From Humitalea rosea (GTDB lineage: Bacteria; Pseudomonadota; Alphaproteobacteria; Acetobacterales; Acetobacteraceae), in contig NZ_QKYU01000004.1 in assembly GCF_003253705.1 (NCBI RefSeq), forward strand, positions 124,001 to 188,000: DNA of 64,000 nt, given 5' to 3'. The position numbers and the translations under genes were made by a program. Positions 16,555 through 61,736 of the stretch are shown in pieces; within the stretch, counting starts at the first letter, position 1, and each line of letters opens with the position of its first letter. Under the pieces are notes generated by a model, which searched no databases, was not told the origin of the DNA, and worked only from the letters and a program-made list of their open reading frames with translations.

Positions 16555-16582
16555 GCGCCCCGGGGAGGCAACCCCGGGGCGC
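16555..16582 (-). terminator. 11-bp perfect hairpin between two Bug genes
   Basis: GCGCCCCGGGG and its exact complement enclose a 6-nt loop, 7 nt after the stop codon of the upstream Bug gene. No U-tract follows. It could terminate the first gene or protect its mRNA 3' end and so set different levels for the two binding proteins. Confidence 0.6.
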
Positions 16583-60274: not shown

Positions 60275-60775
60275 TCAGAAGCGGGCGGTGCCGGACTCCG
60301 CCGTCTGCTCGGGCTCGCCGGTCAGCGCTGCACGCACGGAGCCGAACAGCCCCGCCATGGCGCCGGACCGCCCATCCCAATACTCGGCCGAAATCGCGGT
60401 GACCTGGAGCAGCGCCAGATCGGGGCTTTGCGCCCCCTCCGGGAACCAGGGGCGGGCCTCCTCGGTCCAGAGCCGTTCGGCCATCGCCGGATCGTGCCGC
60501 ACCGCGGCGGTGCCCTGGACGGAGACGTAATCCTGGTTGGCCGGATTCGCGTAGGTCAGCAGGACCTCGCGATCGGCCGCGATCTCCGAGGTCTTGCCGG
60601 TATGGCCCTTGGTGAAGAACCAGAGCGTGCCGTCGGGATCGGTCTGAAGCGCATGCATCGGCCGCGCCCGCAGGCCGCCCACGGCATCGTGGGTGACCAG
60701 CATGGCCACGCGGATGTCCTTGATCATCTCCAGCGCCTTGGCGCGGGCCGCGGCGGGATCGGTTGGCTGGGTCAT
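60275..60775 (-). CDS. Pyridoxamine 5'-phosphate oxidase-like general stress protein
   Basis: Small flavin-binding split-barrel protein of 166 residues of the general-stress 26 type. Typical pieces are IRVAMLVTHDAVGGLRARPM, LWFFTKGHTGKTSEIAADREVLLTY and DYVSVQGTAAVRHD. It probably binds FMN or F420-like cofactors; the reaction is unknown. Its SD (AGGAG) lies within the 3' arm of a 14-bp perfect hairpin immediately upstream, so translation may be controlled by that structure. Confidence 0.9.
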   Translation of the reverse strand: MTQPTDPAAARAKALEMIKDIRVAMLVTHDAVGGLRARPMHALQTDPDGTLWFFTKGHTGKTSEIAADREVLLTYANPANQDYVSVQGTAAVRHDPAMAERLWTEEARPWFPEGAQSPDLALLQVTAISAEYWDGRSGAMAGLFGSVRAALTGEPEQTAESGTARF

Positions 60776-60777
60776 CG

Positions 60778-60811
60778 CGTTGTCTCCTCTGCGGTGTCAG
60801 AGGAGACAACG
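60778..60811 (-). promoter_or_regulatory. 14-bp perfect hairpin sequestering a Shine-Dalgarno sequence
   Basis: Read on the minus strand, CGTTGTCTCCTCTG and CAGAGGAGACAACG are exact complements around a 6-nt loop. The AGAGGAG in the 3' arm is the SD of the stress-protein gene whose ATG follows 2 nt after the stem. It could act as an mRNA switch or as a dimer-binding operator; there is no U-tract for termination. Confidence 0.75.
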
Positions 60812-60831
60812 GCGCGCGACGCCCCTGGTTG

Positions 60832-61116
60832 CTACATGCCCAGGGCGCGGCGGTAGAGGTCGAGCAGGGTCTCCTGCTCCTCCACCTCGGCCGGCTCCTT
60901 CTTGCGGATGGAGATGATCTGGCGGATCACCTTGGCATCGAAGCCGGCCGACTTGGCCTCCTGCATGATGTCCTTGATGTCGCCGGACAGGGCCTTCTTC
61001 TCTTCTTCCAGGCGTTCCACGCGCTCGATGATGCTGCGCAGGCGATCGGCGGCGATGCCGCCGACGTCGGCGTCCTTCTCCGGCGTGTCCTGGATGCTGG
61101 TGGGTGGGTTCGCCAT
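60832..61116 (-). CDS. gapR: GapR-family DUF2312 DNA-binding protein
   Basis: Small helical protein of 94 residues typical of Alphaproteobacteria. The core is AADRLRSIIERVERLEEEKK, then ALSGDIKDIMQEAKSAGFDA and KVIRQIISIRKKEPAEVEEQ. In Caulobacter, GapR binds overtwisted AT-rich DNA ahead of polymerases and supports chromosome replication. Here it is between the stress flavoprotein and the TetR gene on the same strand, with hairpins on both sides, so it is probably its own transcription unit. Confidence 0.93.
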   Translation of the reverse strand: MANPPTSIQDTPEKDADVGGIAADRLRSIIERVERLEEEKKALSGDIKDIMQEAKSAGFDAKVIRQIISIRKKEPAEVEEQETLLDLYRRALGM

Positions 61117-61143
61117 GGGATGCTTTCGGCCTGGGTCAGAAGG

Positions 61144-61191
61144 GGGCGGGATATACCCCCCGCCCGGCGCCGCGCCAACCAGGGGCGCGGC
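61144..61191 (-). terminator. Two tandem GC hairpins after the TetR gene
   Basis: GCCGCGCC (61169-61176) pairs with GGCGCGGC (61184-61191), and GGGCGGG (61144-61150) pairs with CCCGCCC (61159-61165). The first begins 1 nt after the tetR stop codon. They likely end tetR transcription before gapR, although U-tracts are absent. Confidence 0.55.
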
Positions 61192-61192
61192 C

Positions 61193-61702
61193 CTAGGGGA
61201 TGAGCCGCGCGATCAGCGCCTCCTGATCCGGTGCCGGGATGGCGCCATCCAGCAGCAGATGCGCGAGCCCGTGCACCAGGCCCCAGGCGCGCAAGGCCTC
61301 ATCCGGCGAAGAGGCGGCGGCGCTCAGTGCCGCAAAGGCGGCGCGGGAGGCCGCCGCCAGCTCGGGATGCGCCGCCGCGCGCGCCAGCAGCGGGCCGAAC
61401 ATCAGCCGGAACCGCCCCGGCCGGGCCAGGGCGAAGCGGATATAGGCACGGCCCATCCCCGTCAGCGACGCCCCCGCCAGGGCCGTGCCGAAATCGGCAT
61501 AGTGCCGCGCCGCCAGCGCCGCGAGCAGCGCCTCCTTGTCCGCGAAATGGCGATAGGCGGCGGTGGCCGAGACCCCGGCGGCGCGGGCGACCTCCCGCAG
61601 GCTGATCGCGCCATCGCCGCCGGCGTCGAGCAGCGCATCGGCGCGGTCGAGCATGGCCGCGCGCAGATCACCGTGATGGTATGGGGATCTTGATGTTGAC
61701 AC
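61193..61702 (-). CDS. TetR/AcrR-family transcriptional regulator
   Basis: A 169-residue repressor with the N-terminal helix-turn-helix (SLREVARAAGVSATAAYRHFADKEALLAALA) and a ligand domain of the WHG/TetR_C type (FRLMFGPLLARAA, ALRAWGLVHGLAHLLLDGA). It starts at a GTG that lies within one arm of a TTGACA inverted repeat. It probably represses itself and the divergent CrtI-like gene; the inducer is unknown. Confidence 0.9.
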   Translation of the reverse strand: MSTSRSPYHHGDLRAAMLDRADALLDAGGDGAISLREVARAAGVSATAAYRHFADKEALLAALAARHYADFGTALAGASLTGMGRAYIRFALARPGRFRLMFGPLLARAAAHPELAAASRAAFAALSAAASSPDEALRAWGLVHGLAHLLLDGAIPAPDQEALIARLIP

Positions 61703-61736
61703 CGATCACATAACCCGCATGTTTATGATGTCAACT
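61696..61736. promoter_or_regulatory. Divergent promoter/operator with GTTGACA inverted repeat
   Basis: GTTGACA (61696-61702) and TGTCAAC (61730-61736) are inverted around 27 bp, so each strand carries a perfect TTGACA -35 hexamer. On the minus strand TATGTG (61708-61713) is a possible -10 with 16-bp spacing, making the tetR mRNA nearly leaderless. On the plus strand the -10 is less clear (ATGTTT or nearby). Control by the adjacent TetR is inferred. Confidence 0.5.

Follow-up and report, generated by a model that had tools for sequence, protein, structure and literature searches.

In the 64,000-nucleotide stretch of Humitalea rosea DNA analyzed here (the window), a perfect 14-bp hairpin covers the Shine-Dalgarno (SD) sequence of a general stress flavoprotein gene. 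We consider that this hairpin probably provides fold-back insulation: it would mask the SD in RNA reading through from the upstream gene gapR and leave RNA made from the gene's own sigma-EcfG promoter free. The hairpin would thus most likely silence the wrong transcript rather than regulate the right one. The features concerned are as follows.

60275..60775, minus strand: general stress flavoprotein gene, 166 aa (domain match to Pyrid_ox_like, PF16242)
60778..60791, minus strand: hairpin 3′ arm (arm search)
60784..60788, minus strand: AGGAG, the Shine-Dalgarno sequence, part of the 3′ arm and 8 nt from the ATG (60775-60773)
60792..60797, minus strand: hairpin loop, 6 nt (arm search and folding)
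60797..60802, minus strand: predicted start site of the stress mRNA, with 60798 as the preferred position (from published spacings)
60798..60811, minus strand: hairpin 5′ arm, the anti-SD strand, predicted only in RNA entering from gapR (arm search and folding)
60808..60811, minus strand: -10 element CGTT of the putative promoter, forming the outer end of the hairpin 5′ arm (motif search; conserved before orthologues)
60828..60832, minus strand: -35 element GCAAC of the putative sigma-EcfG promoter (motif search; conserved before orthologues)
60832..61116, minus strand: gapR, encoding a GapR-like DNA-binding protein (PF10073), upstream and co-directional, whose RNA would read through

The palindrome spans 60778-60811 and consists of two 14-nt arms that are 100% complementary (14/14 positions paired). 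On the minus strand, gapR is followed by 20 nt, the hairpin, a two-nucleotide gap (CG), and the ATG of the flavoprotein gene. The initial annotation had reported a perfect palindrome with the SD in its 3′ arm and the start codon within 2 nt, in front of a stress flavoprotein gene. These points were borne out, with 14 bp, a 6-nt loop and zero mismatches, AGGAG at 8 nt from the ATG, and a product matching PF16242. Its further claim, that the stem masks the SD, would hold for any RNA carrying both arms (predicted probability of an unpaired SD, 0.000).

Folding of the 101-nt context gave a z score of -2.76, with 2 of 200 shuffled sequences folding equally well, and no other perfect stem of at least 14 bp occurs in the 64-kb window. 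The genome does have other hairpins of this kind: a 400-kb sample of it contains two perfect stems of at least 14 bp (and 15 of at least 11 bp); three base-shuffled copies of that sample, 1.2 Mb altogether, contained no stem above 13 bp. What is exceptional is the position of the hairpin over an SD. Among 394 predicted gene starts (464 kb), only the flavoprotein gene has its SD within a perfect stem of more than 9 bp (14 bp), the next-longest SD-covering stems being 9, 8, and 8 bp. Gene starts, upstream genes, and orientations were not read from annotation; throughout, they were called with a small predictor based on codon usage, for which 55 open reading frames of the same genome had served as training set. 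These counts bear on the possibility that the hairpin has no selected function: the pairing of the pyrimidine-rich stretch behind the -10 element with the purine-rich SD would follow from their composition, and the long match would be due to chance. This is in keeping with the two or so stems of such length per 400 kb and with the finding that the exchanged arms of other orthologues pair nearly as well as their own. However, all 14 pairs are formed, including those between CGTT and AACG outside the SD, and neither the shuffled sequences nor the other predicted starts yielded a comparable stem; we regard chance as distinctly unlikely.

The sequence GCAAC-N16-CGTT at 60832-60808 corresponds to the consensus of sigma-EcfG (SigT), the alphaproteobacterial general stress sigma factor, with a G-to-C variant in the -35 element. 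This variant ranks second in frequency in Sphingopyxis (PMC7083833, in part). The motif, on which the initial annotation is silent, emerged as a common element of the orthologues' upstream regions. The gapR stop codon abuts the promoter, and the -35 element begins on the last base of that codon. We searched for the motif (GGAAC or GCAAC, 16-17 nt, CGTT) within 200 nt of the start of 64 orthologues in the family, found among 299 genomes at E values up to 1e-25. The strict form was present before 43 of the 64, the window's own gene included, and a relaxed form before 58; shuffled upstream sequences gave maxima of 2 and 4, respectively. Counted by genus, 17 of 25 carried the strict and 21 of 25 the relaxed motif. 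The distance from the -10 element to the ATG was nearly constant (median 35 nt, quartiles 33-38), with 36 nt in the window. Named genomes were also scanned: a single protein query gave nothing, whereas a later, alignment-based scan contributed 41 further loci, of which at least 3 are repeats; 19 had the strict and 24 the relaxed motif. The named relatives with the stress gene were largely Roseomonas-type Acetobacteraceae. Genome-wide, the motif was not enriched (85 sites versus 112 for a reversed control), so it counts only through its position and conservation.

On this basis, a sigma-EcfG promoter before the stress flavoprotein gene is well supported, as judged from sequence conservation. 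The gene for "general stress protein 26" of Sphingomonas melonis is among the top EcfG-dependent genes and carries GCAAC...TCGTT 34 nt before its coding sequence (PMC6599016, in part), and a Sphingopyxis granuli gsp promoter with GCAAC and CGTT was transcribed in vitro by EcfG (PMC7083833, in part). EcfG dependence of the flavoprotein promoter is thus predicted by analogy with homologous gsp promoters in which it has been demonstrated. The general stress response genes are present: the genome encodes PhyR (PF22029, 43.7 bits, with a Response_reg domain), an EcfG-like sigma factor, like PhyR above its Pfam cut-off, a borderline NepR-like frame (24.2 bits, just below the cut-off of 25.7), and, in the same locus as PhyR, a HisKA_2-type kinase.

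As a separate observation, the orthologues from Rufibacter and one from Sabulibacter (loci L275, L276, L302, L309, L310, L321, and L322) share upstream GAACC and CGTATTC boxes, which resemble another ECF-type promoter in place of the alphaproteobacterial one. Because the protein at these loci closely resembles its Acetobacteraceae counterpart, a transfer between phyla may have occurred.

The promoter lies in the DNA that encodes the 5′ strand of the hairpin. In Caulobacter, the SigT motif is located at -34 of a mapped start (PMC4287350, in part), and in Bradyrhizobium an ECF start lies 6 bp past its -10 element (PMC3420878, in part); applied here, these spacings give starts at 60798 and 60802. 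By this analogy, the stress mRNA should lack most or all of the 5′ arm. We then folded RNAs with successive 5′ ends, counted from the first base of CGTT. The probability that the SD is unpaired was 0.000 up to 4 nt, 0.003 at 6, 0.22 at 7, 0.40 at 8, 0.59 at 9, and 0.76-0.87 at offsets 10-14. Predicted SD accessibility is therefore 0.00 in gapR read-through RNA versus 0.59-0.87 in the gene's own transcript. With a 5′ end just 4-6 nt past the first base of CGTT, the SD is still masked, and the model of an open own transcript and a shut read-through RNA thus requires a start at least about 8 nt past that base.

From these elements we infer the following mechanism, including the exact start site and read-through from gapR. 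The sigma-EcfG promoter would fill the space that follows gapR, and its DNA between the -10 element and the transcription start would double as the anti-SD strand. RNA entering from gapR would contain both arms and fold, burying the SD so that no stress protein is made in unstressed cells. RNA initiated by sigma-EcfG would have its 5′ end at the inner edge of the 5′ arm or close to it, lack the partner strand, and be translated. Masking would, on this reading, be the selected function of the palindrome.

The initial annotation had instead placed the hairpin in the stress mRNA itself, to be opened by a helicase, an RNA-binding protein, temperature, or a small RNA. Of that interpretation, the masked SD and the stress gene stand; regulation of the stress mRNA by the hairpin probably does not, because the start is predicted inside the palindrome, an outcome that the annotation itself had named as counting against its proposal and that the sigma-EcfG -10 element within the 5′ arm now favors. 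If the gene's own transcript starts inside the hairpin with an accessible SD, no helicase, temperature change, or small RNA is required to free it. Transcripts starting upstream of the 5′ arm would contain the hairpin, but the conserved promoter places the start within the arm, and neither a sigma-70-like promoter near the hairpin nor an Rfam thermometer or riboswitch match (E values up to 1, 60300-61300) was found. A perfect stem of -25 kcal/mol would also be stiff for a thermometer. We consider a hairpin acting in the stress mRNA the most improbable of the explanations weighed here.

The main rival to insulation is that the hairpin is chiefly a gapR 3′-end hairpin, terminator-like or protecting the mRNA end, and that its overlap with promoter and SD saves space; this is compatible with insulation. 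Seven of the eight intergenic perfect stems of at least 11 bp in the 400-kb sample follow a stop codon at a distance of 1-38 nt, and most of these lack a U tract; the hairpin here lies 20 nt from the gapR stop. In several relatives (for example, at loci L024, L030, and L042), a different hairpin directly follows gapR. However, no U-rich terminator or terminator-like site was found at 60500-61400, the bases following the stem being CGCGATGACC; most of the other intergenic stems have a higher G+C content and a shorter loop, and a 3′-end role leaves unexplained why the arms reach from the -10 element as far as the start codon. We judge such a role, as the main purpose of the hairpin, to be unlikely. 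A conserved neighborhood of gapR and the stress gene was considered and rejected, as gapR was present in 2 of 21 stress-gene loci, both in the window's own genome.

It had also been proposed that the palindrome is a DNA operator, which would overlap the transcription start. A site between the -10 element and the SD would suit a repressor, but this alternative found no support: the palindrome sequence is unique in the genome, no corresponding sequence is conserved in the orthologues, and the nearby TetR-type regulator gene, upstream of gapR, comes with an inverted repeat of another sequence (61695-61735). We hold an operator to be very unlikely. As a genome repeat, the arm had 24 further sites with 2 mismatches versus 23 for a reversed control pattern, and a repeated operator or regulon motif was rejected because the arm is unique.

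We examined conservation of the insulating hairpin by several tests. The strong hairpin showed no clear conservation across the family, as judged from the orthologue arms (pairing in 52 of 57 segments, 30-60 nt long, of the promoter survey) and from RNAalifold, which found six weak pairs or none in the orthologue leaders. In an in silico exchange of arms between orthologues, native pairs outperformed swapped ones among 55 sequences including the window (5/5000 permutations) and within genus g16 (14 sequences, 110/5000). The result was not significant for 40 sequences of other genera (1019/5000), nor for that part of g16 alone, a subclade, whose upstream gene is co-directional (0.27, or 0.04 with the window included). 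Near-duplicates (at least 90% alike) had been removed from the arm exchange within g16 or overall and from the first orientation set described below within each genus.

If the hairpin guards against read-through, a co-directional upstream gene should go with a stronger hairpin. In the first orthologue set, with the window left out, the median hairpin z score was -1.07 for 19 co-directional loci versus -0.02 for 34 others (p 0.0035). The effect had a p value of 0.025 without genera g1 and g16, occurred in 69 of 5000 permutations within genus, and was weaker when measured by energy difference (p 0.065) or accessibility (p 0.0185). Three further sets were compared. Of 80 further stress-gene loci, 39 were already in the first set; 41 were counted as new. 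At least 3 of these (L245, L307, and L320) repeat first-set loci that lacked a motif close to the start, and 17 of the 41 were without a motif. After removal of 2 near-duplicates, the remainder showed no orientation trend (3 of 22 co-directional, p 0.72). For PRC-barrel genes, 16 of 70 loci from among the matches listed were used (2 lacked a start codon, 50 a usable motif, and 1 an upstream open reading frame, and 1 was a near-duplicate); the trend had the right sign and was nonsignificant (p 0.09 with the genome's own copy, 0.18 without). The same was true of the genome's other promoters. The three extra sets combined gave 4387/20000, and all four sets 99/20000, a value dominated by the first set. 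A co-directional upstream gene was therefore rejected as a general predictor of the hairpin, as it holds in the first set and not in the three further sets. Because related species are not independent, the effect of orientation on hairpin strength in these sequence comparisons is only suggestive.

A second instance of the layout was found in the same genome. The PRC-barrel stress gene at L115:1501-1983 (contig C2) has a sigma-EcfG-type motif just past a co-directional stop codon and a hairpin of -18.1 kcal/mol running from the -10 region to the SD; the predicted probability of an unpaired SD is 0.13 in read-through RNA versus 0.72 in the gene's own RNA. Most of the other sigma-EcfG-type promoters of the genome lacked such a hairpin among the 15 sites examined, these being 15 of 21 motif sites with an SD and a start codon (6 were omitted by reading-frame judgement). 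A tentative and somewhat doubtful extension is that the general stress regulon of these Acetobacteraceae uses fold-back insulation repeatedly, wherever a stress gene is packed directly behind a co-directional one; the DNA between the -10 element and the transcription start would in that case evolve into an anti-SD strand, acting as promoter in DNA and as lock in read-through RNA.

Insulation of this kind has precedents. The leaders of IS10 and similar transposase genes are protected from read-through by fold-back inhibition, in which read-through RNA masks the translation start and RNA from the element's own promoter does not. The hairpin described here would resemble these leaders, except that they belong to mobile elements and it precedes a stress gene. 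In phage T4, the longer upstream transcripts of gene e (lysozyme), soc, 49, and I-TevI fold a helix over the SD or AUG, and a later promoter in the DNA of the 5′ strand gives rise to a transcript that lacks this strand and is translated (PMC3014915, in part). As in gene e, the SD here lies in a helix formed, by prediction, only by longer transcripts, and the DNA of the helix 5′ strand houses the gene's putative promoter; unlike gene e, the predicted arrangement would belong to a bacterial chromosome and depend on a stress sigma factor, not a phage late sigma factor. The Sphingomonas and Sphingopyxis gsp promoters share the -35 and -10 elements, their spacing, a similar distance to the start codon, and the kind of target gene, but a hairpin from -10 element to SD, present here, is not described in the excerpted text of those reports (PMC6599016, PMC7083833). 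In the library searched, no paper joined four of the five terms general stress response, EcfG, 5′ UTR, hairpin, and Shine-Dalgarno. The logic of the device is thus already known from phage T4; what would be new is a chromosomal gene that combines it with a stress sigma factor. If the proposal is true, a stress gene directly behind another gene could be kept silent without a classical terminator, and the sigma factor would decide both the synthesis of an RNA and its translatability. The case also advises caution: the promoter should be located before an SD-covering hairpin is called a thermometer or riboswitch, as it may sit inside the hairpin.

Several minor observations were made elsewhere in the window and genome. 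At window positions 61695-61735, a GTTGACA/TGTCAAC inverted repeat lies between the TetR-type gene (minus strand) and a gene for an FAD oxidoreductase (plus strand) and is plausibly the operator of the adjoining TetR regulator. At 16555-16582, a perfect, G+C-rich 11-bp stem stands 7 nt past a predicted stop codon and is typical of this genome's gene-end hairpins, which mostly lack a U tract. The general stress locus of the genome (L137:2554-7817, contig C10) comprises the NepR-like frame, two ECF sigma factor genes, and the genes for PhyR and the HisKA_2-type kinase, and two small genes within it carry the sigma-EcfG motif at distances of 56 and 59 nt upstream of their starts.
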